Shown piece by piece: positions 35,627 through 54,749 of a stretch of 64,000 nucleotides of DNA. Under the pieces are notes generated by a model. That model did no database searches and was not told the origin of the DNA. It worked only from the letters and a program-made list of their open reading frames with translations. The position numbers and the translations under genes were made by a program. Positions within the stretch are counted from its first letter, which is position 1, and each line of letters opens with the position of its first letter. The DNA is from Burkholderiales bacterium PBB2 (GTDB lineage Bacteria > Pseudomonadota > Gammaproteobacteria > Burkholderiales > Burkholderiaceae_C), in the NCBI GenBank assembly GCA_002255955.1, contig NKIM01000012.1, forward strand, positions 62,001-126,000, written 5' to 3'.

Positions 35627-35642
35627 CAATCAATCAATCAAA
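35627..35642. repeat. Short TCAA tetranucleotide repeat
   Basis: Four tandem TCAA units lie across the stop codon of the TonB receptor gene and just upstream of the YcnI-like gene. Copy changes would alter the receptor's last residue or stop position and the spacing to the next gene, but no phase-variable effect is evident. Confidence 0.5.
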
Positions 35643-38076
35643 GGTCGAACTTGAGCTCGGCGTGATAGCTGCGGTTCGGGTAGGGATGGAAGGCCCAGTA
35701 CTTGTCGTTGTTCAGGTTGTCGATGCCGGCAGCCAGGGTCCACTGCTTGTCCAGCTTCCATTGCAGGCGCAGGTCACCGGTCAGGAACTTGGAGAAGCCT
35801 TGATAGGTGTGGCCGTTCGGGTCGCTGTTGTTGAGCGTGCCGTACTGTGGGCCGGAGTAGCGCAGGCCGTAGCTCAGGTGCAGGTTCGGCTGGATGGCAT
35901 AACTGGCCAGCACCGTGGCGCGCCAGCGCGGCACGCGCGGCTGTTGGCGGCCGATGGTGTCGCCGGGCGTGCTGACAAAACCGCTGTTGTCCAGGATCTT
36001 GGAGTCGGCATAGGTCAGGCTGCTTTGCAGCTCCAGGCCCTTCAGCCCGAGGCTTTCGCCCAGATCCTGGGCCGAGTAGGCCAGCTCCAGGCCCAGGGTG
36101 CGGATGCGGCCGATGTTCTGCACGCTGCTGATGGTCTTGCTCGGGTCGGCCGGGTTGCTGCTCAGCTGCGAGTACAGCGCGTCGCGTGTGTTCTCGTGGA
36201 ACAGGGTGCTGCGCAGCTGCTGCTTGCCGTGGCTCCAGGTGGCGCTGAACTCGCTGGTCCAGCCGCGCTCGGGCTTGAGATCCGGGTTCGTCGTCGGGTC
36301 GTTCGGCAGATACACGCCGGTGCTGCTGACGCCGCCCTGGTAAAGCTCGCCCACGGTAGGCATGCGCACTGCCCGGCCCGTGGAAACGCGCAACGTCCAG
36401 TCCTCGTTCAGCTCATAGCCCAGGGCCGCCTTGGGCGAGAGAAAGCGCTGCTTGCGCGCGGCAAAGGCCACCGGCGTGCCGTTGGCGGCCGTCTTGCGGC
36501 CGTCCATGGCCTGCCATTCCTCGGCGCGCAGGCCCAGCACGGTCTTCAGCGTCGGGCTCAGGGTCCAGCTGTCCTGGGCATAGGCGCTGCGCAGCTGGGT
36601 CTTGCCGCTGAAGGCGGTGAACAGGGCGCTGGGCGCGCCGCTGATCCAGTCCTCGGTGTCCGAGGTGGTTTGTTGCCAGACATAACGCTCTTGCTGCAGG
36701 CCCAGGTCCAGCACATGGTCGCTGCCGCTGGGACGCCAGATGGCCTTGGCGGCCAGGGCGGTCCAGCCGGTGCCGCCCAAGTCGGTCAGGCGGCCGGCAC
36801 CGCCCTGGTCGGCCGCGGGTCGGGCCAGGCTTTTCGGGCTGCTGGGCGAACGGGCGGTGTCGCTGCGGTAGTCGTACTGGCTGGCGCTGAGCTCGAAATC
36901 GAAGGGGCCGCGTGTGTAGCTCTTGAGCGTGAGGCCATGCATCAGGTGGCTGAGCCGGTCATGGCTCTGGCCGAAATCGGTGTTCGCGACGCTGTACTGC
37001 TTGCCGTCGATCGCGACATTGGCGCCGCTGTAGACGGTGTTGCCGGCGGCATCACGCAGATAGCTTTCGCTCACGCCCTCGCTCTGGTTGTGCCACCAGG
37101 CCAGGCTGTAGCTGGCACGCAGCTGGCTGTCGAAGTCGTAGGCCAGCTTCAGCTTGGCGTGGTCCTGCACCGTGTGGTACTGGGTGCCGGTGCCGAGGAT
37201 CTGCCAGGGCGCATTGCTCTTGTCGGCGTCCAGCACCGCGCCGCTGACTGGTAGCGAGGCGACATTGACCGGCTTGCCGCTGGACACCAGCTTGGTGACA
37301 AAGGTCAGGGGCTGGCCTTCGCTGTCCAGGCGGTTGATATTGATCCACCACGACAGCGCGCCGGCCCGGTCGCCCAGCGAGGCGCTGGCCTGGTGGCCGC
37401 TGTAGTTGCGATGGCTGTTGTAGAGATCAAAAGGCTGCTGGAACAGGCCCAGCTTGGCATGGGCTTCGAAGGCCTTGGGCATGCGGGTTTGGTAGTCCAC
37501 CACCGCGCCGACCGAGTTGCCCGAGTAGGCGGCCGAGAAGGGGCCGTAGAGCACGTCCACGCGCTCGATCTCTTCGGGCGTCACCAGGCCCCAGCGCGGC
37601 GTGAAACCCGCACCGTTGCCCAGCAGGTTGGAGAGCTGGATGCCATCGGCAAACACCAGCGAACGGGCGCTGTTGCCCGTGCCCGAGGCGCGGGTGGACA
37701 GCACGGCGTGGTTGTAATCGCCGATATAGCGCTTGCGCACCAGCAGGCTGGGCAGGTATTTCAGCGCGTCCTCAGAATCGGTCGCGTTGATGGTGCGCGC
37801 GATTTCGACCGCGCTGACGCCTTCCATGGTGGTGGGCAGCTGGCTGGGCAGCGAGCTCAGGGCCTGGCCGCTGACGCTGACCAGGCCGAGCTTGCGGGTG
37901 GGGCTGGCGATGGAGGATTCGTTGTCAGCGGAAACCTGGGCTGACATGGGGGCGGCTTGCTTGGCCGCGGCAGGGCTGGCGCCCTCATCGCAGTCGTCAC
38001 AGGCCAGGGCGGTCAGAGGCAGGTAGGCGGCGGCCAGCGCCAGGACCAGGGCGGTCGGTCGGGGGAGTTGATGCAT
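35638..38076 (-). CDS. TonB-dependent outer-membrane receptor, probably for copper
   Basis: An 812-residue receptor. The signal peptide is MHQLPRPTALVLALAAAYLP followed by a mature CDDCDEG segment. The plug domain contains DALKYLPSLLVRKR, VFADGIQLSNLLG and TPEEIERVDVLYGPFSAAYSGNSVGAVVDY. The barrel ends YHAELKFDL with the terminal hydrophobic pattern. The TonB box is not obvious. Its partners (a DUF2946-type gene upstream, a YcnI-like gene downstream) point to copper or a copper complex. ATG 38076 was preferred to an in-frame GTG at 38100. Confidence 0.9.
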   Translation of the reverse strand: MHQLPRPTALVLALAAAYLPLTALACDDCDEGASPAAAKQAAPMSAQVSADNESSIASPTRKLGLVSVSGQALSSLPSQLPTTMEGVSAVEIARTINATDSEDALKYLPSLLVRKRYIGDYNHAVLSTRASGTGNSARSLVFADGIQLSNLLGNGAGFTPRWGLVTPEEIERVDVLYGPFSAAYSGNSVGAVVDYQTRMPKAFEAHAKLGLFQQPFDLYNSHRNYSGHQASASLGDRAGALSWWININRLDSEGQPLTFVTKLVSSGKPVNVASLPVSGAVLDADKSNAPWQILGTGTQYHTVQDHAKLKLAYDFDSQLRASYSLAWWHNQSEGVSESYLRDAAGNTVYSGANVAIDGKQYSVANTDFGQSHDRLSHLMHGLTLKSYTRGPFDFELSASQYDYRSDTARSPSSPKSLARPAADQGGAGRLTDLGGTGWTALAAKAIWRPSGSDHVLDLGLQQERYVWQQTTSDTEDWISGAPSALFTAFSGKTQLRSAYAQDSWTLSPTLKTVLGLRAEEWQAMDGRKTAANGTPVAFAARKQRFLSPKAALGYELNEDWTLRVSTGRAVRMPTVGELYQGGVSSTGVYLPNDPTTNPDLKPERGWTSEFSATWSHGKQQLRSTLFHENTRDALYSQLSSNPADPSKTISSVQNIGRIRTLGLELAYSAQDLGESLGLKGLELQSSLTYADSKILDNSGFVSTPGDTIGRQQPRVPRWRATVLASYAIQPNLHLSYGLRYSGPQYGTLNNSDPNGHTYQGFSKFLTGDLRLQWKLDKQWTLAAGIDNLNNDKYWAFHPYPNRSYHAELKFDL

Positions 38077-38271
38077 GGTGGACAAGAGAGAGATTCGCAC
38101 TCGATCGATTCAGGCTCGCGCCGGGCGCCACAAAACCGTGGTGGCCGAGCGCGCGGCTCAGAACGGAAAAAACGCAGAGAGCAGGGGGAGAACACGGCCC
38201 TGCAACGCCGCAGCGACTGGCACGCGAGCACGCGCGTAAGCCCAGGCTGCGGGCCGGGCCCGGCTGGTGAA

Positions 38272-38767: not shown

Positions 38768-41002
38768 TCAGGGCATCAGCAGTTCCTGGAAGCTGGGCAG
38801 GGGCTGGCTGTTGCCGGCCGCACCCACGGCCGGGATCAGGCGCCAGCGGTCCTGCCCCAGCTGGGTGCCCAGGGTGTTGGGTGTGCGCAGCCGGGTGCGG
38901 TCGCCCTCATGCCCATCCAGCAGACGCAGCTCGGGGTGGTCGAAAGGCGCGCGTTCATAACGCACGCGCTCATCGGTCAACGATCTCAGAAACTCCAGCA
39001 GATCGCTGCGTGCGCCGGCATCGAGCTGCAGCTCGGGCTGGCCGAACACGGTGCCGAACTGCTTGGAAGCGCCGGCGAAATTGCCGCCGCGGGCGTAGAA
39101 CTCGATCACCTCCTCCAGGCTCGCCATGCTGCCGTTGTGCATGTACGGGCCGGTCAGCTCGATATTGCGCAGGCTGGGGATCTTGAAGGCCGCGTCGGTC
39201 ACCAACAGCATGCGCTTGTTGGCCGGGCTGGCCAGTTCGGCCTGCGCCGCTGCAGGGGTGGGGACGAAGGCATTGGCCGTGTTCAGGCAGCCCGCCAGGC
39301 TGTGCGGCTGAGCTTGCACTCCCTGAGCCTGGGTGAAGATCGTGGGGTGCGAAGGCGCGCGGTTCTGGGCGATGGCGGTGGGCAGATCGCAGGCCCGCAC
39401 CTCGAGCACGCGGCTGTCCTTGACGGCGCTGCGGTCGCCGGTGAGCAGCTTCAGGTACTGCGCGGCGTAGGCGAGGTCGTTGCCAAAGTCGTCCTTGCCG
39501 GCCAGGCCCACATCCCATTCATCGCGGCCCACGCCGGTGGCGGCAAAGCCGGTGTCGACGAAGCCGAAGCCTTTCTTGCCCGCCATGCGGCTGACCAGAT
39601 TGGCCGAGGTGCTGTTCTTGAAGCCCGGGCCGCTGAAGCCCCAGGGTTGGCTCTTGACCAGGGCGGCATTGGTTTCGACCGCGGCCGAGGTGAAATTGGG
39701 ACCGATGTGGCAGAGCGCGCAGTGGGCGCGGCGGAACACCTGCAGGCCGCGCAACTGCGCGGGCGTGAGCTCGGTGGGCAGGCCGGTGGTGTCGCGGGCG
39801 CTGCGGTCAAAGGGCGAATCGTCGGAGACCAGGCTGCTTTGGTAGATCTGCAGGGCCAGGCCGAAGAACAGGCTGAAATTGGCCTCGGCCTGGCTGTAGG
39901 GCTGGGCCATCACGCCCTTGCCGCCCACGGCCGGTTTGCCGAAGGGGCCGCGCAGCTTGGACGACCACAGGCGCGGGTGAAAGGCCTGTTGCACCAGGCT
40001 CAGATAGTCCACGTTCAAGCCGGCCTGGCCGCGCGCGCTGGCTGAGAGCGGACCCAGCACGCTGTCTTGTGGATGCACTTGCTGGGTTTCCAGCGCCGTG
40101 CGGTAGAGCAGCTTGCGGCCGATGTCGGCCAGGCTGCGGCCGCGGCAGCTCATTTCCTTGTCGTTGAGCGGCGCGGTCATGGCCTGGGAGGCCAGGGCTG
40201 AGTTGGGCAGGGCCAGGCGCTCGCGCTGGACCGTGTTGTCCGCCTTCAGCACCCAGATACCGGCCTGGGGGTCGCGCTCGCCACCGGCGCTGCTGCCATT
40301 GAAGACATGGCTGGCGCGGCCATCCCAGAGCAGGCGGTGGTTGAAGACGGCGTTGATCACGCTGGGCGCATTGCGGTCGCTGACCCGGCGGGCGCCGATG
40401 CCTTGGACGTGAAAGCTCGGGTCGGGGCTGCGCAGGCAATCGTCGCTGCTGGCGCCGGCGTAATCGACCGCCTTGAAGTTCCCGCCGAAGCTGCCGGCGG
40501 AACCGGTCACGGCGGCGGAGATCCGGCTGAGCGTGCGTTCGTCCACATCGGCCAGCGGGGGCTGGGCCTGGGTGAACGGATAGTCGCTGCGCTTGAGCGT
40601 CTGGTTGGGCCCGCGCTGCAGGCCATCGGGGCCGATGTCGAAGCGGGCGTTGGTCTGGCTCTTGCCACCCGGTGCCAGCTGGTTGCGCGTGCGCCGGTCG
40701 GCGCCGGCCGCGAAATGGCAGGACGCACAGGCCATGCCGTCGCTGCCCACATTGCTGTCCCAGAACAAGGCCTTGCCGAGGATCAGTGCTTTCTGCCGGT
40801 CCACCACCAGCGGCAGGGCGCCATCGCTGAGGCCGGGCACTGGCGGCACAGGCACGCCCTTGAGCGAGAGCGGCATGGGGCCAATGTCCGCCCATGCGGC
40901 AGCGGCGGCGGCCAGACCCAGCCCCAGCAAGGCGGTGCGCAACGGCCAGGCGCGCGTGTGGCGCAGGAAAGCAGGGAGGGTGAGGCGTGTGTGAGCAGAC
41001 AT
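38768..41002 (-). CDS. Di-heme cytochrome c peroxidase-family protein
   Basis: A 744-residue periplasmic protein, far longer than ordinary bacterial cytochrome c peroxidases (about 330-400). The signal peptide ends AAAAAWA. Heme motif 1 is CASCH at residues 92-96 and heme motif 2 is CALCH at 428-432. The more than 300 residues between them include the DRNAPSVINAVFNHRLLWDGR segment typical of MauG-like peroxidases. The C-terminal part has KIPSLRNIELTGPYMHNG. It follows a PEP-CTERM gene after 99 bases, mirroring the PEP-CTERM/MbnH arrangement upstream. The substrate may be a protein, but this is speculative. Confidence 0.87.
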   Translation of the reverse strand: MSAHTRLTLPAFLRHTRAWPLRTALLGLGLAAAAAAWADIGPMPLSLKGVPVPPVPGLSDGALPLVVDRQKALILGKALFWDSNVGSDGMACASCHFAAGADRRTRNQLAPGGKSQTNARFDIGPDGLQRGPNQTLKRSDYPFTQAQPPLADVDERTLSRISAAVTGSAGSFGGNFKAVDYAGASSDDCLRSPDPSFHVQGIGARRVSDRNAPSVINAVFNHRLLWDGRASHVFNGSSAGGERDPQAGIWVLKADNTVQRERLALPNSALASQAMTAPLNDKEMSCRGRSLADIGRKLLYRTALETQQVHPQDSVLGPLSASARGQAGLNVDYLSLVQQAFHPRLWSSKLRGPFGKPAVGGKGVMAQPYSQAEANFSLFFGLALQIYQSSLVSDDSPFDRSARDTTGLPTELTPAQLRGLQVFRRAHCALCHIGPNFTSAAVETNAALVKSQPWGFSGPGFKNSTSANLVSRMAGKKGFGFVDTGFAATGVGRDEWDVGLAGKDDFGNDLAYAAQYLKLLTGDRSAVKDSRVLEVRACDLPTAIAQNRAPSHPTIFTQAQGVQAQPHSLAGCLNTANAFVPTPAAAQAELASPANKRMLLVTDAAFKIPSLRNIELTGPYMHNGSMASLEEVIEFYARGGNFAGASKQFGTVFGQPELQLDAGARSDLLEFLRSLTDERVRYERAPFDHPELRLLDGHEGDRTRLRTPNTLGTQLGQDRWRLIPAVGAAGNSQPLPSFQELLMP

Positions 41003-41101
41003 GGCGGCGAACAACAGATGCGTGGCGGGCGGCAGGGGCGCGAATGAGGGGCGCAGCCCGGGTGCTGCGGCCTCCGGCGCGCGCCCCGGGCTTGTGCTCA
41101 A

Positions 41102-41929
41102 TCAGTCTTGCTTGCGGCGGCTGCGGCGCAGGGCCAGCAGGCCCATGCCGGCCAGCATCAGGCCCAGCGAGGCGGGCTCGGGCACGGCCGTCACCGATTG
41201 CACCGCCAGGGTGTAGTCGGTCGAGCTCTTGGTGTTGTCAGTGCCGCCGATGAACAAGGTGTACCAACCGGCCTGCAGCTGGCTGACACGCAGATGCACC
41301 TGGTTGCCGCTGGCGCTGCCAGTCACGCCTTGCTCAAAGCTGTTGTCGATGCTGATGTCGTTGACGCCCGATATGATGACTTCGCCCCAGCCGGTGGTGC
41401 TCGGGTCCAGGTGCGAGGGGCCGGTGACGGCATAGGCCAGGGTTTGCTGGATGTTGCCGTTGGCGCCGCTCATCCAGGCGGTGCCAAAGTCACCGATCTG
41501 ACCGACCGCATTGAAGGAGTGCGGGTCGCCCCAGCCGTTGTTGCCTGTCTCGATGCCTTCACTGCCCCCATCGAACTTGCTGGCGCCCGAGGCCCACAGG
41601 GTCAGACCCGGGGCGAAGTTGGCGCTGCCCAGCACGGGGGTCAGGTCGATGGTGACATCGCTGGTGGTGGCCAGCTGGAAGGTGTACCAGGGGCTGCCGC
41701 CGGCATGGGCCCAGGCCGAGTACATCAGGCCCGGGTTGTCGGCATAGCCGCTCTTGGCCAGGTTCTTGACCACGCTGAGGCTGCCGCCAGCGGCCAGCAG
41801 CGGTGTGTTGCCGGCGCCATTGCCCCAGTTCTGGAACTCGACGGCGTCGGCCGCCAGGGCGGTGCCGCTCAGGGCCAGGAGGCTCAGTGCGCCCAGCAGT
41901 TGCTTGAGGTGGCGGGTGGTGGTTTTCAT
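41102..41929 (-). CDS. PEP-CTERM sorted exported protein (copy 1)
   Basis: A 275-residue protein with GGAG 7 bases before ATG 41929. The signal peptide is LLGALSLLALSGTALA. The body is a Trp-rich beta protein (EFQNWGNGAG, SAWAHAGGSPWYTFQL, GNNGWGDPHSF). YTLFIGGTD near residue 232 is shared with the PEP-CTERM protein at 46983. The C-terminal sorting signal is VPEPASLGLMLAGMGLLALRRSRR: PEP motif, hydrophobic helix, Arg cluster. It would be exported and processed by an exosortase, none of which is in the window. It lies between the beta-barrel-like gene and the large di-heme peroxidase. Confidence 0.88.
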   Translation of the reverse strand: MKTTTRHLKQLLGALSLLALSGTALAADAVEFQNWGNGAGNTPLLAAGGSLSVVKNLAKSGYADNPGLMYSAWAHAGGSPWYTFQLATTSDVTIDLTPVLGSANFAPGLTLWASGASKFDGGSEGIETGNNGWGDPHSFNAVGQIGDFGTAWMSGANGNIQQTLAYAVTGPSHLDPSTTGWGEVIISGVNDISIDNSFEQGVTGSASGNQVHLRVSQLQAGWYTLFIGGTDNTKSSTDYTLAVQSVTAVPEPASLGLMLAGMGLLALRRSRRKQD

Positions 41930-42015
41930 CGGAATCTCCGTTTCAGGTTGAGAAGACAGGGTTGAGAAGTTCAGGGACTGGGACAGGGAACAGGCGTTTG
42001 GGACCGGCGGCTGCG

Positions 42016-43293
42016 CTACCAACTGCGTGACCACAGGGCATCGGGTGTCCAGACCAGGCGCAGCAGCGAGAAGTTGTTGTGCTGCGAGCCCAGGGTTTCG
42101 CGGCCGGCCTCCAGGCTCAGGCGCAGGCCGGGCCAGGGCTCGTGGCTAAGGCTGGCGGCCGCGCGCCAGATGCGGCTGTTGCCCAGCAGGCCGGCGTCGC
42201 GCGCCACAGCCAGGGCATTGACGCTCTCCAGGGTCTGAACGCCGCGCAGGGTCTCGGCACGCAGGGCCAGGCCGGTGCTGGGGCGGATTTGCCAGATCAG
42301 GTCCAGCCAGCCGCCGCCGGTGCTGCCTTGGTAGTCGGTGTCGCCGTTGATCGAGTACAGCTGGCCGCGGTCGCGGCGCAGCAAGCCGGCCGCTTCCAGA
42401 CGCAGGTCCGCTTCGGTGGGCAGCAACCAGGACAGGCTGGCGCTGAAGACTTGGCTGCGGCCGTCAAAGCAATGGATGCCGAGCAGATTGCCGCTGCAAT
42501 CGGGCCGCTCGTGGGTGTGGGCGGCGGTACTGCTTTGCACATAGGCCCCGCGGCCACGCGGGCGCAGCAGGGCGGCCGAGGCGTCAAGCGCCACATCGCC
42601 CCAGGCCAGGCGGGCATGGGCGGCTGCGGCGGCCGGGCCCTGGCTGCCGCCGGGGAAGCGGCGCGCCCGCCACAGGCCCAGGTCCACCGTTTCCAGCGCG
42701 GCCCAGCGCCCTTCGTGGCTGCGCTGCCAGCGCAGGGAGATACCGTCGTCGATCCAGTCGCCGCCGAGCACGGCGCGCTTGGCCAGGGGCTGGCTGGCGA
42801 AGCGGTCGAAATGGCCGCCGCCGTCGATCAAGCGACCTTGGGGCAGGCGGTTGCGGCCCGCGCCCAGCAGCCATTGTTCGTCTCCACGGCGGGCCTCGGC
42901 CTGCAGCCAAGCGGCTTCCACATGGACCGGGTCGCTGTCGTGCCAGCCCAGGGCCAGCAAGGCGCCGACATGCTCACCCAGGCGCAGGCCGGCATCCACG
43001 GTGGCATGTTCCAGCGCACCGTCTCGGCGGTCCACCGGGGTCTCACCATTGCCGAGGATGCCGGGCAGCTTGGCCATGGGCCAGGCCGTGTCAGCGCGCG
43101 CCTGGCTCAGGGCCAGGGCGGCACCCAGGCGCAAGCCGGTTTGCTCGGGCAGGGCCTTGAGGCCCAGTTCGTGGGCTTGCAGCAGGGGGGCGCTCAGCAG
43201 GCTCAGACACAGGCTGAGTGTTCGGCACCAGCTCCAGCCTGGCCGGCGCGCCGCGCGCTCAGTTGCCCTGGGCTTTGGCGAAAGGGTCGGCAT
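42016..43293 (-). CDS. Putative outer-membrane beta-barrel protein
   Basis: About 425 residues, unrecognised family. A signal peptide precedes AHELGLKAL. The mature part alternates short beta strands rich in Gly, Trp, Leu and Arg with turns, as in porin-like barrels, for example GLRLGAALALSQAR, WLQAEARRGDEQWLLGAG and GLRLSLEAGRETLGSQ. It ends LLRLVWTPDALWSRSW with a terminal Trp. It overlaps the 3' end of the MbnH gene by 35 bases from ATG 43293 (59 bases if ATG 43317 is used), so it is part of that operon. It may provide an outer-membrane passage for the MbnP/MbnH substrate. Confidence 0.72.
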   Translation of the reverse strand: MPTLSPKPRATERAARRPGWSWCRTLSLCLSLLSAPLLQAHELGLKALPEQTGLRLGAALALSQARADTAWPMAKLPGILGNGETPVDRRDGALEHATVDAGLRLGEHVGALLALGWHDSDPVHVEAAWLQAEARRGDEQWLLGAGRNRLPQGRLIDGGGHFDRFASQPLAKRAVLGGDWIDDGISLRWQRSHEGRWAALETVDLGLWRARRFPGGSQGPAAAAAHARLAWGDVALDASAALLRPRGRGAYVQSSTAAHTHERPDCSGNLLGIHCFDGRSQVFSASLSWLLPTEADLRLEAAGLLRRDRGQLYSINGDTDYQGSTGGGWLDLIWQIRPSTGLALRAETLRGVQTLESVNALAVARDAGLLGNSRIWRAAASLSHEPWPGLRLSLEAGRETLGSQHNNFSLLRLVWTPDALWSRSW

Positions 43294-44452
43294 GCTTGGG
43301 GTTGCTGAGGAATTCATGGTCGGTCAGGGTGCGCAGAAAGGCGACGATGTCGGCGCGCTCCTGGGTGTTGAGGCTGATGCGGGCCACCAGCGGGTCTTTG
43401 TTGGGGTTGGCGCGGCCATCGCCGGCGTGCGGGCCGCTTTCGATGTTTCGCCCGCCCGCGGCGTAGAAATCCAGCATGGCCTCCAGCGTGGGGATGGAGC
43501 CGTCATGCGTGTAGGGCGCCGTCACCTCGACATTGCGCAGGCTGGGGGCGCGGAACTTGCCCATATCGCTGGGCTTGGCGCTGAGTTCGAAGACGCCGCG
43601 GTTGGGCTCCGGAAAGGCTCCGGTGCCGCCGATATTGAACAGGCCGGTGTTGTGAAACGGCGTCTCGGTCAGGCGGCTGCTTTTGTGCACCACCTGGTCG
43701 TTGAAGTTGAAGCCGCCGTGGCAGTGGAAGCACTCGGCCTTCTCGCCGAAGAAGAGATTGAGGCCGCGCTCCTCGGCGTCGCTCAGCTTGACCTTGCCGG
43801 CCAGGTACTGGTCGTACTTGCTGTTGCCCGAGATCAGGCTGCGCTGGAAGGCCGAGATGGCCTTGACCACATGGTTCCAGCTGATGGCATCGGCGCTCTT
43901 GCCAAAGGCCTGGGCGAACATGGTGGGGTAGGCGGCATCGCTGCTCAGGCGCGCCAGCACCGTGGCCTTGTTGGCGTCGTTCAGCCCCATCTCCACCGGG
44001 CGGGTGCCGAACAGGGGCACCAGCATCTGGGTCTCCAGATCGGTCAGGGCCGGGTTGGCCCAGGTCAGGGTGGCGTTGTAGGCCACATTGACGATGGACT
44101 GGGCATTGCGCGGGTGCGCCTCGCCGGTGGAGCCGATGGCGGTGAGCTTGCCATCGGTGAAGGCCTGGGCCTGGATGTGGCAGCCGGCGCAGGCCTGCGT
44201 GCCATTGCCCGAGAGTCGGCGGTCGTAGAACAGGAAGCGGCCCAGCTGCACCTTGTCGGCCGACATGGGGTTGCTGTCGGGCACGCGCGGTTCGGGGAAG
44301 CTGGTGGGCAGGGCCCAGGCCCAGGCGCCATCGGCCGCTGCCGTGACCTTGACCTCGGTGCTGCCGCCGCCACCGCACGCGGCCAGCAAGGCGGTGCTGA
44401 CCAAAGCAGCCCAGCGAAGGTGAAGGGCGCGAGATATGGAACGTAACTTCAT
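43259..44452 (-). CDS. mbnH: MbnH-like di-heme peroxidase of the metallo-mystery pair
   Basis: A 397-residue lipoprotein-type di-heme c protein with the lipobox LLAACGGGG, Cys at residue 26. Heme motifs are CAGCH (88-92) and CFHCH (241-245). KFRAPSLRNVEVTAPYTHDG near 315 and AMLDFYAAGG follow the MauG/MbnH pattern. Its start overlaps the stop of the MbnP-domain gene (ATGA), the strict partner arrangement known for MbnP/MbnH. In the characterised pair MbnH oxidises a Trp of MbnP to kynurenine, creating a copper site. That chemistry is likely here but inferred. Confidence 0.9.
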   Translation of the reverse strand: MKLRSISRALHLRWAALVSTALLAACGGGGSTEVKVTAAADGAWAWALPTSFPEPRVPDSNPMSADKVQLGRFLFYDRRLSGNGTQACAGCHIQAQAFTDGKLTAIGSTGEAHPRNAQSIVNVAYNATLTWANPALTDLETQMLVPLFGTRPVEMGLNDANKATVLARLSSDAAYPTMFAQAFGKSADAISWNHVVKAISAFQRSLISGNSKYDQYLAGKVKLSDAEERGLNLFFGEKAECFHCHGGFNFNDQVVHKSSRLTETPFHNTGLFNIGGTGAFPEPNRGVFELSAKPSDMGKFRAPSLRNVEVTAPYTHDGSIPTLEAMLDFYAAGGRNIESGPHAGDGRANPNKDPLVARISLNTQERADIVAFLRTLTDHEFLSNPKHADPFAKAQGN

Positions 44453-46980
44453 TTGCTGATGGCGCGAAACACGGTCTGGCTGAGGCCGTCGTTGAGGGGC
44501 AGGCCGCTGCCACTGCCGTCGCTCTTCCAGTCGATGCCCAGGGCCTCGAAGACCTTGAGGCAGTCGCGATCGGTGCCGGCGGACATGCAGCCCTGGGCGC
44601 CGCCCTGGTTGATGGTGATGTTGGTGCCGGCCAGCAGGGCGGCGATGTCCACGGCAATCTTTTGCGAGGCGGCATCGAACGACGGCAGATGGACGATGCC
44701 GCGGTTGGGCTTGGCACAGACGACCGTGCCCAGGCCGGCATTGCCGGTGCAGGAGGTGGAGCCCAGGTGCACGAAGAAGGAATCACTGGCCCAGCCGCCG
44801 CCGCTGGGCTGGGTCACCTCGATCTTCATGAATTTGCGCCCGGCCTGCCAGCTCCAGCCCATGGCCGCGTTGTCCAGTGGTGCCGGGGCCGAGGAGGTTT
44901 GGCTGTGGTTGAGCGAGTGCGGCACACCCAGGGTGGCGCGGAATCCCACATAACGACCCGCCGGCACGGTGCCGCTGAGCCAGGCATTGCTGGCTGCGGT
45001 GGTGGGCTCGGGCGAATCGGCACAGCTGCCGCTGCCGTCTTCCAGGTCGATAAGGCTGACCGAGTCGCCGTTGGCCGCGGTGTGGTTCCAGCCATTGTTG
45101 GCCGTCAGGCGGATGGGCACCAGGCTGCCATCGGCGCGGATCAGGCTGGCTCCGCTCAAGTAGAAGCGGAAGTCCAACAGGCGTGAGACTGCGGCCGTGC
45201 TGCCCATGGCCGGCAGAGGCTGGGTGCAACTGACCGGCGTGCTGCCGGCCACGGCCGCGAACTGGATGGCGACCTGCCGGTCGGCGTTGAGCGTCGCGGC
45301 CAGTCCACCGCGGGCGCGTGCCACCTGGATGGCGGCCGCCAGGCTGCTGGCGCGATCAAACAGCAGGCGGTTCAGGTCGGTGATCAGCTGGGCATCGCTG
45401 TCGCCCGCACGGATTGGGCCGGCCAGCAGGTCGGCGGCCGGCGTGGCCAGGCTCAGGCTGGCCAGTTCGCCACGCAGCCAGCTCTTGCCGGCCTCGAGGC
45501 TGCTGCTGGCTGGTGGTGTCATCAGCTGGCTGCCGGCGGCGAACACATTGGCCGGGCTGTCGGCGAAGGCATGGGCCAGGCTCAATTCCGACAGCGGGCT
45601 GATCTGGACTGTGCCGCCCAGGCGGTCGACCCAGCCATGCAGCCTCTGGCTGTTCGCCTGGTTGCCGACGCTGCCGCCCTGGGCCTGGAACAGGCAGGGT
45701 GCTGTGGCACCCAGCAGCTTGATGCTGAAGCCGCCTTGGGCGTCGGTCAAGGTGTCAGTGGGGGCATTGCCGCCGACGCAGCGCACTTGCACGCTGGCGC
45801 CGCGAATCGGCTCGCCATTCAGGGCCACACCAGTGACCGTGGCTTGGCGGACGAGTTCGGCCTGGCGAATCAGCTCAGCCAGGCGGGCGGCTTCAGCGGC
45901 CGCCGCTGCAGCAGCCTCCGCCTCGGCCTTGGCTTTGGCCTCGGCTGCGGCCTTGGCAGCGGCTTCAGCGGCGGCCTTGGCGGCAGCTGCTGCGGCTTCG
46001 GCCTGCGCCTTTTCGGCGGCGGCCTTGGCCGCGGCCTCTGCCGCGCGGGCGGCGGCCTCGGCGGCCAAGCGGCGCGCTTCCTCTTCGGCCACGCGGGCTT
46101 TGGCCTCGGCAGCCAGGCGGGCGTCTTCGGCGGCCTTGGCCGCCGCAGCGGCGGCAGCCGCTTGCTCGGCACGCAAGCGCTCAGCCGCGGCGGCAGCTTC
46201 GGCCGCGAGGCGCGCGCGCTCATCGGCCGCGGCTTTGGCCGTGGCCAGGGCCAGGCTGAAATCGCCCGCGCTCTGGGCGCTGCTGCGCAGCTGGGCCAGG
46301 CTGCTCTCGTGGCGGGTCAGGGTGGCGCTCAACTGGTCGAGTACCTGATCGGTGGCAGCGCCAAGGCGGAAGGTCTCGGAGAGCAGATCGCCGCTGGGCG
46401 TCTTCAGGCCCAGTGCGCTCAACTGCCGCGTCATGAACTGTGCCGAATCCGCCAGGGCCTTGCTGCTCGGCACATCGGCGGCGCCGGCGAAGCGTGCGAA
46501 CACCTGGGCCGGCTCGGCGCCGTAGGCGCGAGCCAGCTGCAATTCGGTGAGCGGGTGGATGGGTGCCTGGCCGGTGGCCAGCGCCAGGCCATGCATAAGC
46601 TGGCTGACCGGCGTCCCCAGGGCGGTGCCGCCCCGGGACTGCAAGAGGCAAGGGGGCTTCAGATCGCCCAATTCCAGATGAAAGCCGCCCAGCACATCGC
46701 TGGGTGCCTGGGCGCGCGCGCGGCCATTCAGGCAGCGCGCTTCGACCTCGGCACCCACCACCGGCGCGCCCACGGCCACCGTGCCATCCAGCGTGGCACT
46801 GAAGGCCTGCGGCAGCACGGGCACCGGCGTGGCGGCGGGCGGCACAAACTCAGGCGTGCTGATCTTGTCGCCGCCGCCACCGCCACAGGCGCTGAGCAGG
46901 AGCAGGCTGAGGGCTGGGCCCAGAGCACGGCCCACGCGGCCCATGCGGCTCGGGCGGGGCAGCTTCATCGTCCCGCGCAT
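44449..46980 (-). CDS. mbnP: MbnP-domain lipoprotein with duplicated domain and coiled coil
   Basis: 843 residues, several times the length of a simple MbnP. Order: lipobox LLSACGGGG (Cys 32); domain A (about 61-225); Ala/Lys/Glu coiled coil like TolA (about 246-380); domain B (about 382-560), an evident duplicate of A (each has a Cys pair, RCxxG plus PCLxQxxGG, then a PLxELxLAxAx segment); C-terminal MbnP domain (about 572-815). MbnP hallmarks are LLDFRFYLSGASL, LIDLEDGSGSC, LGVPHSLNH, GWSWQAGRKFMKIEV, HLGSTSC and GCMS, with Cys at 585, 653, 744, 755, 798 and 807. The WSW segment is a candidate for the Trp modified by MbnH. GAGG precedes ATG 46980. Confidence 0.88.
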   Translation of the reverse strand: MRGTMKLPRPSRMGRVGRALGPALSLLLLSACGGGGGDKISTPEFVPPAATPVPVLPQAFSATLDGTVAVGAPVVGAEVEARCLNGRARAQAPSDVLGGFHLELGDLKPPCLLQSRGGTALGTPVSQLMHGLALATGQAPIHPLTELQLARAYGAEPAQVFARFAGAADVPSSKALADSAQFMTRQLSALGLKTPSGDLLSETFRLGAATDQVLDQLSATLTRHESSLAQLRSSAQSAGDFSLALATAKAAADERARLAAEAAAAAERLRAEQAAAAAAAAKAAEDARLAAEAKARVAEEEARRLAAEAAARAAEAAAKAAAEKAQAEAAAAAAKAAAEAAAKAAAEAKAKAEAEAAAAAAAEAARLAELIRQAELVRQATVTGVALNGEPIRGASVQVRCVGGNAPTDTLTDAQGGFSIKLLGATAPCLFQAQGGSVGNQANSQRLHGWVDRLGGTVQISPLSELSLAHAFADSPANVFAAGSQLMTPPASSSLEAGKSWLRGELASLSLATPAADLLAGPIRAGDSDAQLITDLNRLLFDRASSLAAAIQVARARGGLAATLNADRQVAIQFAAVAGSTPVSCTQPLPAMGSTAAVSRLLDFRFYLSGASLIRADGSLVPIRLTANNGWNHTAANGDSVSLIDLEDGSGSCADSPEPTTAASNAWLSGTVPAGRYVGFRATLGVPHSLNHSQTSSAPAPLDNAAMGWSWQAGRKFMKIEVTQPSGGGWASDSFFVHLGSTSCTGNAGLGTVVCAKPNRGIVHLPSFDAASQKIAVDIAALLAGTNITINQGGAQGCMSAGTDRDCLKVFEALGIDWKSDGSGSGLPLNDGLSQTVFRAISK

Positions 46981-46982
46981 GA

Positions 46983-47819
46983 TCAGCCTCGTTGGCCGCG
47001 GCGGCGGGTGAGCAGGCCCATCAGACCCAGGCCCAGCGAGAACATCGCCCAGCTCTGTGCTTCGGGCACCGGTGCGGCCACGCTCAGGGTGGCGCTGAGG
47101 CCAAAAGTCTTGGCCAGATCGGGGTTGCTGGGGTTCTGGGCCCAGTAGTCCGCGCCGCCGATCATCACGGTGTAATCGCCGGCCGCCAGGGCAAAGCTGG
47201 CGCTCACAAAGCCATCGGCCACGCCGTCACCGACCACGTTGGGATTGGCATTGCTGAAGTTGGCCGCGCTGCCGTCGACGGCATAGCCGCGGAAGGCAAA
47301 GCTGCTCAGCTCAGCCGCATAACTGGCATTGCCATCGTTGCCGATCTTCCAGTCGCCAGTGGCCACCCAGGCGCCTTCCTTGGTCTCGCCGGGCAGGCTG
47401 GCGAGGTAGGCGGTGCTGATGGCCGAGAAGTCATGGTCGGCCGATTGCGGCGCGAGGTGGGCCAGGCCTTGATAGATGGAGAAGCCAGGCAGCAGGCCGC
47501 CGATGCTGGTCGACGTGGCATCGGCCTTGGCGGCCACGCTCAGCGTGATGGTGGCGGCGTTGTCGAGGTGGAAACGGAAGGCGCGCGCCTTGTGGCTGTC
47601 GCCAAAGTTGAAATCAGTGGCATCCGCCCAGCCGTAGTTGCCGCTGACGGCCTGGTTGGCGATGGTCACGCTTTGGCTGGCCAAGCCGCTGAAGCTGCCG
47701 AAGTCGCGGCCGCCATAGCCCAGGTGGGCCTGGGCGCTGCCGGCGGCGGCGAGCAGGCTCAGGGCCAGCTGCCAGGGTTTGACTGCGGCCTGGGCGTGGA
47801 GGAAGTTGGTGGTCTTCAT
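46983..47819 (-). CDS. PEP-CTERM sorted exported protein (copy 2)
   Basis: A 278-residue exported beta-rich protein. The signal peptide ends GSAQAHLGYGG, so the mature N terminus could begin at His. Central region: QSVTIANQAVSGNYGWADAT and FRFHLDNAATITLSV. YTVMIGGADYW near residue 225 matches the related protein at 41102. The sorting tail is VPEAQSWAMFSLGLGLMGLLTRRRG, with PEA instead of PEP. Its stop is two bases before the MbnP-gene start, so both are translated from one transcript. A role as partner or anchor for the MbnP/MbnH pair is inferred. Confidence 0.86.
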   Translation of the reverse strand: MKTTNFLHAQAAVKPWQLALSLLAAAGSAQAHLGYGGRDFGSFSGLASQSVTIANQAVSGNYGWADATDFNFGDSHKARAFRFHLDNAATITLSVAAKADATSTSIGGLLPGFSIYQGLAHLAPQSADHDFSAISTAYLASLPGETKEGAWVATGDWKIGNDGNASYAAELSSFAFRGYAVDGSAANFSNANPNVVGDGVADGFVSASFALAAGDYTVMIGGADYWAQNPSNPDLAKTFGLSATLSVAAPVPEAQSWAMFSLGLGLMGLLTRRRGQRG

Positions 47820-48218
47820 ATCGATGTGTCTGAATGCCTCTGGGAGGCGTGGGTGTCCATGCGCCCGAGGTCGAGCGGGCATGCGGCGGCGCTTCTGCGC
47901 GAGCGCAGAGGAGTCGGACCCTTGCGGGGCCGGAGCTTGGGCGGGGGAGAACGCTCAGTGACGCCGCGAATGCGTAGGCCCACTCTGCGATGCCCTTGGG
48001 CGCCGACAGCGCTCAGCTGCCGAGGCGCAGCGCATGAGCGGAAGGTCGCAAGGGTGAATGGGCAGGGCGTACACCGGCCCGGGTCGAGGACCTGAAACCG
48101 ACGGACCGCAGGAGCAGTCCGACCCGATAGCCACGGGCCGGCCGCTCAGGCAGCAGCGGTATTCAGGTTCACAACAGCCGCCAGAACGGCGGGCTTGGGC
48201 GTGCGTGCACCGGAGCGT
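47820..48218. promoter_or_regulatory. Upstream region of the PEP-CTERM-MbnP-MbnH operon (399 bases)
   Basis: This gap separates the second DUF2946-type gene from the PEP-CTERM gene; both read on the minus strand. It is GC-rich with several short inverted repeats. I saw no riboswitch hallmark, terminator or small gene. It should hold the promoter of the metallo-mystery operon. Confidence 0.4.
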
Positions 48219-48653
48219 TCAGGCGCTCAGCGGCGGGGCACGCGATTGCGCCGGGCTCCAGGCATGGAGGCGGCGAGGGGCTTGCAGGAAAAGCTCGGGC
48301 ACTTCATGGCCGAGTTCCACGGGCAAACTCAGGACCGAGGCGACGCTGGGCAGGGCCGGCGCGCTGTTCTGCAGTGAGCAGTAATCGCAATGCTCCCAGA
48401 CCGAGAGCAGGCTCGGCGCTTCGGGCTCGCCCTCGGGCGCCTGCGAGGCGACCGAACTGACGGCCACGCTGCTGTCGCCGCTGTTGGACAGAGCAATCCA
48501 ACGCGAGCCTTGGGCCGAGCAGATCTCGATCCAGCCTTGGGCGCTGAGATTGGCATTGAGTGCACGCGACACCATGGGCATCAAGACCAAAGCCAACATG
48601 GCGACGAGCGCAATCCATGTGCTCAGGCGTTGTTGGGCGTGGTGGCGTGACAT
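48219..48653 (-). CDS. DUF2946-type small protein (copy 2)
   Basis: A 144-residue protein from ATG 48653. One hydrophobic helix (TWIALVAMLALVLMPMVS) is followed by a soluble part with EHCDYCSL near residue 87. The tail HAWSPAQSRAPPLSA is nearly identical to that of the copy at 38272. It lies downstream of the two PCu(A)C-type genes and upstream of the PEP-CTERM/MbnP operon. The paired Cys next to a His suggests metal handling; function otherwise unknown. Confidence 0.78.
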   Translation of the reverse strand: MSRHHAQQRLSTWIALVAMLALVLMPMVSRALNANLSAQGWIEICSAQGSRWIALSNSGDSSVAVSSVASQAPEGEPEAPSLLSVWEHCDYCSLQNSAPALPSVASVLSLPVELGHEVPELFLQAPRRLHAWSPAQSRAPPLSA

Positions 48654-48766: not shown

Positions 48767-49201
48767 CTAGTTTGGCTTCGTGCGCGGCTGCTGAACCCAC
48801 ACTTGCACACGGGCCTCACCCGCACGTTCGAAGCGCAGCATGGCGTCGAAACGATCGCCCGCTTGCAGCGGCCGCTCCAGGCCTTGCAGGCGCAGGCAGG
48901 CTTGCTGGTCATGCCGCCAGGCCTGCTTGCTGCCGGCCGGCAGTAGCAGGGGCAAGGCCTGACCCTCGGGTGCCAGCACGGTGCGTACGCCGGCCACGCT
49001 GACCGACAGCAGCCGGTCGGCTGCCTCACCTACATTGCGAATCTCGCGCAGGCAGAGCTGGCCCTGATCGCCGACGGACGGGGTGGCGTAGGGGTGATCC
49101 AGGCGCAAGGCGCCAGCCCGGAAATCATGGGCGGCCGCCCCGCCAGTCAGCAGGGCCAGACCGAGCGCGGCCAGACCGCCCGCGCGTGGGCTTCTCGCCA
49201 T
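48767..49201 (-). CDS. Degenerate PCu(A)C-like protein without Met/His ligands
   Basis: A 144-residue exported protein; the signal peptide ends AAAHDF. The fold pattern follows PCu(A)C copper chaperones (LRLDHPYATPS, IRNVGEAADRLLSV, PLQAGDRFDAMLRFERAGEARVQVWV). The ligand sites are not conserved: where the neighbour has GGYHIMLMDL this protein has DQQACLRLQGL, and no His-x(n)-Met motif follows. Two Cys residues (QLCLREI and QACLRL) occur instead. Its ATG overlaps the stop of the upstream PCu(A)C gene by one base (TGATG), implying coupled translation. A partner or altered-specificity role is possible. Confidence 0.75.
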   Translation of the reverse strand: MARSPRAGGLAALGLALLTGGAAAHDFRAGALRLDHPYATPSVGDQGQLCLREIRNVGEAADRLLSVSVAGVRTVLAPEGQALPLLLPAGSKQAWRHDQQACLRLQGLERPLQAGDRFDAMLRFERAGEARVQVWVQQPRTKPN

Positions 49202-49683
49202 CAATGCTTGTGGGCGTCGTGGCCGGCAGCAGCAGCCGGCTTGGTGCCGGCTTGTGCCTGGGCCTTGATGTCCACGGTTTCGCGCTTCTTGTCGCGGTTC
49301 TCGAACACCAGGGACAGGTCCACCTGCTCGCCGGCGGGCAAGGCTTTCTTCAGGTCCATCAACATGATGTGATAGCCGCCGGGCTTGAGCTCGACGTTCT
49401 TGCCGGCAGGCAGATCCAGGCCGTCCACGGCCCGCATCTTCATGGTGCTGCCTTCCATCTTCATCTCATGCACTTCGACGATGCCGGCGACCGAAGAGCG
49501 CACCTCCACCAGGCGGCTGTCGCTCTTGGCTTTCAGTTGCAGAAAGGCGCCGGTGGCTTTTTGGTTGGCGACTGTGGCGCGCACCCAGGCTTGGCTGACT
49601 TCCACCTGGGCCCAGGCTTGGGCGGCGCCCAGCAGGCTCAGAGAAGCAGCAATGAGAGTGGCACGCAAGGACTTGTTCATCAT
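49201..49683 (-). CDS. PCu(A)C periplasmic copper chaperone
   Basis: A 160-residue exported protein. The signal peptide ends AAQAWAQ. The family copper motif is visible as VHEMKM, MKMRAVDGLDL, then GGYHIMLMDL near residues 71-108, supplying the His and Met ligands. The His-rich tail AGHDAHKH is an additional site. PCu(A)C proteins carry Cu(I) in the periplasm, classically to cytochrome oxidase. No cytochrome oxidase or Sco gene is in the window. MMNK begins at ATG 49683; the next codon is also ATG. Confidence 0.9.
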   Translation of the reverse strand: MMNKSLRATLIAASLSLLGAAQAWAQVEVSQAWVRATVANQKATGAFLQLKAKSDSRLVEVRSSVAGIVEVHEMKMEGSTMKMRAVDGLDLPAGKNVELKPGGYHIMLMDLKKALPAGEQVDLSLVFENRDKKRETVDIKAQAQAGTKPAAAAGHDAHKH

Positions 49684-50716: not shown

Positions 50717-51994
50717 TCAGGCGCTCAGCAGGTCCAGCAGGCTGCGCGCGATCACCTGGGTGGCGCGGCGCAGGTCTTCCAGCTGCAGGTGTTCGTCGGC
50801 CCGCTTGGCATTGCTCTCCAGCACCGTGCGCGGCCCGGCGCCGTAGATGGCGGCCGGGATGCCGTGTTCGCCGTAGAGCCGCACATCGGTGTAGAGCGGT
50901 GTGCCCGAGGTGGGGATGGGCTCGCCGAACACCGCCTCGCCATGCCTCTGCAGGGCCTCGACCAGCGGCTTGTTGCCGGCCTGGGGCTTGAGCGAGCGGG
51001 CCAGCAGCAGGCGCTTGATGTCCACCGTCACGCCCGCCGCATGGCCGCCGCAGCGGGCCGCGGCGCCGCGGATCAGCTCACGCAGGTTCGCTTCCACGGC
51101 CACCGGGTCTTCCTCGGGAATCATGCGTCGGTCCAGCTTGAACACCACACGGCCGGGCACGACATTGGTGTTGCTGCCGCCCTCGATGCGGCCGACGTTG
51201 AGGTAGGGGTGGTTGATGCCGGGCACCTCGGAGCTGATCTTCTGGTACAGATCGTTTTGGGCGTAGAGCACTTGAAGGATCGCCACCGCGCCTTGCAGCG
51301 CGTCGATGCCGGTGCTGGGGTAGGCAGCGTGCGAGGCCCGGCCGTGCACCGTCACCTCCAGCTGCAGGCAGCCGTTGTGGGCCGTCACCACCTGGTAGCT
51401 GAAGCCGGCGGCCAGCAGCAGGTCGGGCTTGCTGAGGCCTTGCTTGAGCAGCCAGCCCGGGCCCAACTCGCCGCCGAATTCTTCGTCGTAGGTGAAATGC
51501 AGCTCCAGTCCGCCGCGCAGGGCCACGGCGCCCTCGGCCTGCAGCGCCTCCAGCGCGCGCAGGGCGAAGGTGTAGCTGGCGAAATCGCTCTTGCTCACGG
51601 CGGCGGCGCGGCCATACAGGCGGCCATCGACGATCTCGCCGCTGTAGGGCCCATGGCTCCAGCCCTCGCCGGGCGGCACCACATCGCCGTGGGCATTGAG
51701 CGCCACCACCGGCCCGCCCTCCGCATAGCGCCGGCGCACGATCAGGTTGGTGATGCTCTCCATGCCCTGCGCCCGCACCAGCTCGGCGGGCACGGTGTGC
51801 TTCTCGGCGTTCAAGCCCATGGCCGCCAGCAGCTCGGCGGTGCGCTCGGCATGGGGCGCGTTATTGCCCGGCGGTGTGTCGGTGGGCACCTGCACCAGGG
51901 CTTGCAGATAGCGCACTTCCTCGTCGAAATGGGCGTCGATCCAGGCGTCGAGCTTGGTGTAGTTCTGGGCGGCCTGTGTCATGGGTTGTGTCAT
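50717..51994 (-). CDS. M20-family metallopeptidase/amidohydrolase
   Basis: A 425-residue ArgE/DapE-type hydrolase. Metal-site segments are ALNAHGDVVPPGEGW (His and Asp), TYDEEFGGELGPG (Glu pair) and RADEHLQLEDL (C-terminal His). The usual bridging Asp in GRGxxDMKG is not present: here the segment reads GRAAAVSKSDF. GGAGGG lies 8 bases before ATG 51994, and this start overlaps the stop of the uraD-allantoate amidohydrolase gene (TCATG on the plus strand). It is therefore the last member of the puuE operon. The substrate is unknown; a ureide or acyl-amino acid from purine breakdown is a guess. Confidence 0.87.
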   Translation of the reverse strand: MTQPMTQAAQNYTKLDAWIDAHFDEEVRYLQALVQVPTDTPPGNNAPHAERTAELLAAMGLNAEKHTVPAELVRAQGMESITNLIVRRRYAEGGPVVALNAHGDVVPPGEGWSHGPYSGEIVDGRLYGRAAAVSKSDFASYTFALRALEALQAEGAVALRGGLELHFTYDEEFGGELGPGWLLKQGLSKPDLLLAAGFSYQVVTAHNGCLQLEVTVHGRASHAAYPSTGIDALQGAVAILQVLYAQNDLYQKISSEVPGINHPYLNVGRIEGGSNTNVVPGRVVFKLDRRMIPEEDPVAVEANLRELIRGAAARCGGHAAGVTVDIKRLLLARSLKPQAGNKPLVEALQRHGEAVFGEPIPTSGTPLYTDVRLYGEHGIPAAIYGAGPRTVLESNAKRADEHLQLEDLRRATQVIARSLLDLLSA

Positions 51995-53778: not shown

Positions 53779-53781
53779 GGC

Positions 53782-54723: not shown

Positions 54724-54749
54724 GTCTTGGTGCTCCAGATGAGAGGTGC

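Follow-up and report, generated by a model that had tools for sequence, protein, structure and literature searches.

The window analysed here comprises 64,000 nucleotides (nt) from Burkholderiales bacterium PBB2 (contig NKIM01000012.1, positions 62,001 to 126,000) and carries on its minus strand, at 44449-46980, an open reading frame without internal stop that encodes a protein of 843 amino acids (aa), exactly at the coordinates and in the frame given by an initial annotation of this DNA. We read the product as a predicted stalked Cu(I)-kynurenine protein, that is, a lipoprotein in which a copper-binding domain of the MbnP family stands behind two related domains (A and B) and a long helix placed between them. 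All of these parts are of known kinds; their A-helix-B-MbnP combination is new to us, and among the papers listed by literature searches, which covered most subscription papers poorly, none dealt with an MbnP protein of this build. An AlphaFold (AF2) model, built from a 33-row alignment, together with sequence comparisons gives the order lipoprotein signal, linker (residues 33-56), domain A (57-241), helix (242-379), domain B (380-564) and MbnP (565-843); structure prediction had been proposed in the annotation, and the model draws A, helix, B and MbnP in the succession described there. The signal peptide (residues 1-32, 46885..46980) ends in a lipobox, L-S-A-C32, which agrees with the lipoprotein signal noted earlier. 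Five Gly follow Cys32, the residue at position +2 being Gly, and a Gly/Pro-rich linker (46813..46884), modelled with a per-residue confidence (pLDDT) of about 30, leads to domain A. All segments of the protein lie on the minus strand.

The C-terminal domain (44452..45288) was identified as MbnP by the profile TIGR04052 with 244.6 bits against a cut-off of 140 (E 1e-72; residues 569-820 aligned to positions 1-242 of the 257 in the profile), by Pfam MbnP (PF20243) with 104.9 bits against a cut-off of 27 (E 6.3e-30; profile 2-189 of 189) and by comparison with solved structures, among which the nearest chain is 7l6g, the MbnP of Methylosinus trichosporium (phmmer against Protein Data Bank (PDB) chains, E 1.9e-46; Foldseek E 3.5e-24, target TM-score (TMt) 0.81). 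The annotation had described a complete MbnP domain here, and its identification, which would have fallen had residues 570-820 failed to match the profile, stands. The usual MbnP is a lipoprotein of ~300 aa whose domain stands mostly 25-60 residues behind the start codon (starts chosen by script), whereas about 530 residues separate the lipid Cys from the MbnP domain in the window protein. Both Trp of the WxW motif, W709-S-W711 (44848..44856), are invariant in the 33 rows of alignment A2 and in the 16 rows of the more diverse alignment A1. H692, H738, M799, C585, C653, C744, C755, C798 and C807 are likewise invariant in A2 (33/33), and H692, H738, C744 and C755 in A1 as well. We take the first Trp of WxW to be converted into kynurenine by the enzyme MbnH, as in the M. 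trichosporium MbnP/MbnH pair, and the copper ligands of MbnP to be His and Met; a kynurenine at W709 and the binding of Cu(I) by this domain are predicted from the sequence. The likeness to the M. trichosporium protein covers family, fold, WxW, the conserved His, Met and Cys, and the adjoining MbnH gene. A second candidate, a MopE-like W-x-H site at W631/H633, was set aside because H633 aligns with a Tyr in 7l6g, although W631 does meet a Trp there, and because the conserved columns of A1 and A2 include neither of the two.

Domain A (46258..46812), a beta-sandwich with Cys83/Cys111 plus helices, and its duplicate B (45289..45843), with Cys401/Cys429, are identical at 61 of 169 residues (36%, BLASTP E 2e-29), and their Smith-Waterman score is 261, the best of 1000 shuffles reaching 74; the homology between them that the annotation asserted persisted in this self-comparison. 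Both domains are of the type of the non-heme domain of PgcA, a protein of Geobacter sulfurreducens. A profile made from eight A/B-type rows and run against solved chains matched 9i0d (E 4.5e-15) and 9i0e (E 1.2e-12), the next match standing at E 0.015; both entries are titled 'Lipoprotein cytochrome c', and the title of 9i0d specifies the non-heme domain of PgcA. Domain A alone had 9i0d as its sole phmmer match at E up to 10 (E 4.8e-4). The model of B had the same chain as its first Foldseek match (E 2.4e-6, probability 1.00, query TM-score (TMq) 0.55, TMt 0.51, 28% identity), followed by other beta-sandwich proteins at E 5e-4 and weaker; this fold match is moderate evidence, deriving mainly from the beta-sandwich, because the mean pLDDT of B is 65 and its helical half is poorly predicted. 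In domain A the model draws strands at 63-133 and helices at 145-234, the helical part mostly with pLDDT <55. Pfam CarboxypepD_reg scored below its cut-off of 32.3 bits, with 31 bits for the whole protein and 25.3 for B alone. The positions of the 11 Cys of the protein exclude a CxxCH haem motif, and A and B match cofactor-free domains of the PgcA non-heme type.

PgcA is described as a lipid-anchored protein that opens with a cofactor-free domain, followed by metal-active domains on linkers (PMC11520253), a layout like that of the window protein. In PgcA a single non-heme domain is accompanied by three monohaem domains, which are strung on flexible (PT)x linkers, whereas the window protein is devoid of CxxCH and combines two non-heme-type domains, separated by the helix, with a copper domain. 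Domains of the A/B type are common in the bacterial family: of 200 sampled genomes, at least 71 have one with E <=0.001, and this is a lower bound since almost every genome listed yielded more candidates than the 16 that were scored. A tree of 38 such domains groups A with B (94/76, not starred), and the single Niveibacterium domain described below is the next to join (96/86), as would fit a domain that was duplicated and whose two copies came to flank the helix. As a separate observation, many lipoproteins of the family (L145-L173) open with a PgcA-like domain and continue with varied C-terminal parts, many of the frames having 500-1000 aa. Two further A/B-type lipoproteins are encoded in the window's own genome (L049:3101-5116 and L050:2825-5110), neither matching a Pfam family at E 0.001; the one in L050 lies directly behind a TonB-receptor gene with a His-rich stretch.

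Between A and B, the Ala/Glu/Arg/Lys segment (45844..46257) is drawn by AF2 as one helix over residues 242-379, with block pLDDT of 83-87 at 251-320. The long Ala/Lys/Glu stretch of about 130 residues reported by the annotation was recovered with a length of 129-138, depending on the boundaries chosen, and the 138 residues include 77 Ala, 20 Glu, 12 Arg and 9 Lys and neither Gly nor Pro. Opposite charges are paired at i/i+4 in 21 cases against 6.6 expected, a number reached by none of 5000 shuffles, and like-charge pairs at i+3 or i+4 are absent where about 6 would be expected. The same annotation had called the stretch a 'heptad-like' coiled coil, a description that did not hold: in the best register 6 of the 12 LIVMF residues fall at a/d (shuffle mean 5.6), and charges are not depleted there (10, shuffle mean 8.9). 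Given charge pairing without a heptad, we read the segment as a charge-stabilised single alpha-helix, an Ala-type coiled coil retaining some small likelihood. With a rise of 0.15 nm per residue in an alpha-helix, its length is about 20.7 nm if fully helical, and the stalk is probably stiff.

The pattern is kept in the orthologue from a Roseateles metagenome-assembled genome (MAG), L065, in which the 164 helix residues measured show 16 opposite pairs at i/i+4 against 6.8 expected (0 of 5000 shuffles), like-charge pairs number 2 at i+3 and 1 at i+4, and the sole Gly of the 169 residues counted stands at the very start. The ratio of nonsynonymous to synonymous substitution (dN/dS) against this orthologue is 0.23 for signal and linker, 0.24 for A, 0.27 for the helix, 0.27 for B and 0.21 for MbnP, figures that are rough because dS is 0.74-1.55 and partly saturated. 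Purifying selection thus seems to act on each of the five segments, and the gene looks real and in use. Since the charge pairing is kept despite a change in length and the rough dN/dS of the helix is low (0.27), its physical character seems to be selected.

A helix of comparable kind is found in domain II of Escherichia coli K-12 TolA, which is Ala-rich, has no heptad and pairs opposite charges at i/i+4 (45 against 22.2 expected in residues 48-310, 0 of 5000 shuffles). The term 'TolA-like' used in the annotation is therefore apt for the type of helix, in that the pairing is shared, and fails as a family assignment, TIGR02794 giving the whole protein 29.5 bits against a cut-off of 59.45 (E 4.4e-7). 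The window protein also differs from TolA in having a lipobox instead of an inner-membrane N-terminal helix. Descent of the helix from TolA was considered and rejected: the helix alone gave 9.3 bits (E 0.6), and five shuffles gave no match. Elsewhere in the window's genome another TolA-type match exceeds the TIGR02794 cut-off. According to PMC12204202, it is mainly in gamma-proteobacteria that TolA domain II takes an alpha-helical form, whereas the relatives of the window protein are Burkholderiales.

The A-helix-B-MbnP build is rare. Within the genus, MbnP is present in 4 of 18 genomes, the window's own included, and the A-helix-B type in 3 of 18 species, namely that of the window (G000), G007, whose protein of 871 aa (L033/L065) has all parts, and G011, whose copy (L034/L064) is cut by a contig end inside domain B. 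In wider samples, the window's genome being counted, 39 of 399 family genomes, 14 of 369 class genomes and 20 of 398 phylum genomes were found to have an MbnP. Every other MbnP open frame in the class and phylum lists has 254-435 aa. The other frames of the family list have 299-701 aa: those of 701 and 674 aa are MbnP-like/di-haem fusions, those of 582 and 564 aa carry a different N-terminal domain, and those of 543 and 479 aa are open far upstream of the likely start. Such fusions deserve separate mention. In L043:2897-4993 (G328) and in the 674-aa minus-strand frame of L044 (G385), an MbnP-like segment with NH...WGW and a following His, which scores only 28 bits with TIGR04052, is joined to a di-haem domain of the MauG/MbnH type that has two CxxCH and, in L043, scores 204 bits with TIGR04039, less than the cut-off; the polypeptide is possibly an enzyme-substrate fusion.

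From 276 relatives in a named genome collection 80 loci were kept, and A/B-type domains precede MbnP in five of them (L064, L065, L066, L067 and L070). One such domain and MbnP make up the proteins of Niveibacterium sp. 24ML (L066, 500 aa) and of a Burkholderiales MAG (L067, 505 aa), and L070 is cut by its contig so that only a domain tail is visible before MbnP. N-terminal extensions of other kinds occur in L137 (a Zoogloea MAG), L141, L041 and L042; a shared ancestry of A/B with the L141-type N-terminal domain was rejected (hhalign probability 1.4). The annotation's statement that known MbnP proteins lack this build is accordingly right as to the rarity of the complete arrangement and too broad in view of the single A/B-type domains of L066 and L067 and of these other extensions.

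In an MbnP tree of 83 rows the A-helix-B proteins form one group (100/99), with L070 next to it (100/99). A single clade of the window group, L070 and L066 was not rejected by the approximately unbiased (AU) test (p 0.078), whereas a single gain of A/B that includes L067 was (AU p 0.025); for the domain tree, a clade uniting the seven MbnP-linked domains was not rejected either (p 0.129). The junction between B and MbnP is similar in the window group, L066 and L070 and different in L067. With the clade that includes L067 rejected, MbnP has probably gained N-terminal domains repeatedly. L067, L078 and L079 each carry two MbnP genes, which belong to distant types.

Judged by the families of its neighbours, the stalked MbnP gene is part of an MbnH/PCu(A)C copper gene run, whose members described below all lie on the minus strand. 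Homologues of the neighbours were counted in the 80 loci at E 1e-4 or better, and the counts are lower bounds because several loci end at contig ends. Directly downstream, the gene of the di-haem enzyme MbnH (43259..44452; TIGR04039 514 bits, cut-off 362.85, E 1.6e-154) overlaps the MbnP stop with its start by 4 nt and encodes a lipobox of its own; a homologue is present in 79 of the 80 loci, the remaining one (L134) ending inside MbnP. Two MbnH genes each were seen in L067, L137 and L141. The next gene encodes an exported protein, guessed to be a beta-barrel (42016..43317), with homologues in 51 of 80 loci. It had no match in Pfam or NCBIfam, and a few of its relatives show porin-type matches, all sub-threshold. 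In alignment A4, which holds the window protein and 25 of its 46 stronger homologues, all 26 rows share a His behind the likely signal-cleavage site (His49), an HxH and two Cys; His49 may be the mature N-terminus, and the protein is possibly a copper-binding outer-membrane protein.

Further downstream lie an FxDxF-family PEP-CTERM protein (41102..42034; NF038126 51 bits, cut-off 50) and a di-haem MauG/CCP-type cytochrome of 777 aa (38768..41101; CCP_MauG E 1.7e-16), which have homologues, in the latter case full-length and with second MbnH genes removed, only beside the A-helix-B form (L064 and L065, 2 of 80 loci in each case). A correlation of the cytochrome with extended MbnP proteins in general (5 of 80 loci) was dropped, the matches in L067, L137 and L141 being second MbnH genes. 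A TonB-dependent receptor follows (35638..38100; PF00593 E 3e-47, Plug E 7.4e-11), with homologues in 13 of 80 loci, five strong (E 3e-73 or better) and eight weak (about 2e-6 to 1e-8). On the upstream side, a second PEP-CTERM protein (46983..47882; PEP-CTERM E 2.9e-5) ends 2 nt before the MbnP start and has a homologue in none of the 80 loci at E 1e-4; the two PEP-CTERM proteins are weakly alike over about the C-terminal 66 residues that hold the sorting signal (E 0.045). Beyond it are a DUF2946 protein (48219..48653; PF11162 E 1.2e-22; 31 of 80 loci), a PCu(A)C-like protein (48767..49204; PF04314 E 3.2e-5, 24.2 bits, below the cut-off of 29.4; 22 of 80 loci) and a PCu(A)C copper chaperone (49201..49683; PF04314 E 1.2e-37; 43 of 80 loci). 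Two exosortase matches and a full-length GspD are present in the window's genome.

The kynurenine-copper centre may work at the surface, in the periplasm or at the membrane. By the E. coli Lol +2 rule, Gly at +2 directs a lipoprotein to the outer membrane, and the Gly behind the lipid Cys thus predicts outer-membrane anchoring of the 843-aa protein. From such an anchor the helix would carry MbnP away from the outer membrane. The annotation suggested that the helix could cross the periplasm and place MbnP near the outer membrane, which is unlikely; an outer-membrane anchor and a periplasm-spanning helix would bring MbnP near the inner membrane instead. Tentatively, and with a little less than even confidence, we propose that the stalk holds the Cu(I) site of MbnP beyond the outer membrane, outside the cell, to catch copper. 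The lipid anchor at Cys32 would sit in the outer membrane, and the stalk would be formed by the flexible linker, the PgcA-type domain A, a single helix of ~20 nm and the PgcA-type domain B, to which MbnP is joined directly. The neighbouring MbnH would oxidise the first Trp of WxW (W709) to kynurenine, the MbnP domain would then bind one Cu(I), and with the stalk standing outside the cell this site would be held beyond the surface, where copper could be caught for the TonB receptor, the exported protein at 42016-43317 and the PCu(A)C chaperones of the gene run.

The outward direction of the stalk, proposed by analogy, is the weakest step of this scheme. It is slightly favoured over a course through the periplasm because of the export of PgcA, the surface association of MopE and CorA, both Cu(I)-kynurenine proteins, the two PEP-CTERM proteins, the two exosortase matches and GspD. 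For PgcA, a lipid anchor, passage across the outer membrane and release of a part of the protein are described (PMC11520253, PMC5732950). MopE and CorA are reported as surface-associated (PMC3912023, PMC3621798), intact MopE being so and its C-terminal region secreted (PMC3621798, PMC3912023). MopE/CorA with SACCP/CorB resemble the MbnP/MbnH pair in having a Cu(I) site with a Trp-derived kynurenine and a partner di-haem cytochrome. Kinship in sequence was not detected by phmmer, a search that is not profile-profile: 7l6g was the sole PDB match below E 0.5, and none of the other eight (E 0.55 or worse) was MopE/CorA, of which no entry stands among the best 50 Foldseek matches listed either. The copper ligands of CorA are two His (PMC3912023), in contrast to the His and Met assumed here for MbnP.

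Several points weigh against this surface reading. The case for export is built on a single characterised relative of A/B and on functional analogues that show no sequence kinship at the sensitivity used, and CorB, the MbnH counterpart of CorA, is apparently mainly periplasmic (PMC3912023). The tether of MbnH is short, and a far-held MbnP might be hard for it to reach if both are anchored. A short MbnP without stalk is the rule, that of G006 in the same genus included. As for the model, residues 331-360 of the helix have a pLDDT of no more than 51-59, and prediction is also poor in the helical half of either domain, A and B. Finally, C585, C653, C798, M799 and C807 are conserved in >=90% of the 16 rows of A1 and not invariant there, C744 and C755 being the only Cys that are.

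An arm that spans the periplasm is the strongest of the other explanations and on balance slightly less likely than display at the surface. The protein would be anchored in the inner leaflet of the outer membrane, its TolA-II-like helix would cross the periplasm and the MbnP head would work close to the inner membrane, where it would pass copper on to PCu(A)C and to respiratory enzymes; this is the idea of the annotation with its polarity reversed. A helix of 138-164 residues measures about 21-25 nm, comparable to the usual width of the periplasm, and the outer-membrane anchor predicted from the +2 Gly, like the one PCu(A)C and one PCu(A)C-like gene nearby, is what such an arm would call for. 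The charge statistics of the helix are moreover those of E. coli TolA domain II, described as a periplasm spanner (PMC12204202). Against it, PgcA, the sole characterised protein of the A/B domain type found, is described as acting outside the cell (PMC11520253, PMC5732950), the PEP-CTERM neighbours point to the surface, and Pfam and NCBIfam scans gave no known inner-membrane docking module. It is also doubtful whether the protein works as a copper arm in the stricter sense, in which a selected, rigid single helix would set the reach and hold the Cu(I)-kynurenine site ~20-25 nm from the outer membrane, bridging the periplasm or standing beyond a surface layer; literature searches, in which subscription papers were poorly covered, found no long-reach lipoprotein copper relay.

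Distance might also be irrelevant. In this less probable account A and B would be modules that bind an envelope polymer, an S-layer or another protein, the helix would be a passive spacer and the whole would have arisen by ordinary shuffling onto MbnP. The abundance of A/B-type domains in the family genomes (at least 71 of 200), their varied C-terminal parts and the probably repeated gain of N-terminal domains by MbnP (clade with L067 rejected, p 0.025) agree with it, but a passive spacer would leave unexplained why charge pairing is kept in an orthologue with a different helix length and why the helix, with its rough dN/dS of 0.27, seems selected for its physical character. A frameshift, misassembly or decaying fusion gene is very improbable, for although the helix DNA is of low complexity, GC-rich and with weak tandem repeats, an independent orthologue already speaks against an artefact, the identical order being intact in the MAG of L033/L065 (871 aa), and a second MAG (L034/L064) carries part of B and MbnP up to its contig end, with dN/dS of 0.21-0.27 across all segments.

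The observation made in the annotation is right in its substance and worth following up. The long-distance form makes the location of the copper site testable, as the helix can be changed while the copper site stays intact, and it could allow tests of the distance from the membrane at which copper is picked up or delivered by such bacteria; within the same genus, the long form and the short MbnP of G006 allow a natural comparison. The assignment of A and B to the PgcA non-heme type ties a large group of lipoproteins of the bacterial family to a solved structure.

MbnP/MbnH pairs are reported to occur far beyond the producers of methanobactin (PMC3621798). In the present collection such pairs were seen in 11 records labelled Actinomycetota, Actinobacteria, Thermoleophilia or Solirubrobacter (L076, L080, L091-L093, L098-L100, L109, L111 and L120), two of which are cultured Solirubrobacter strains. 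Within the window, a run of three genes at 50717-54753, whose products resemble enzymes of purine/allantoin catabolism by sequence impression and not by family search, is also kept beside the copper cluster in L033.

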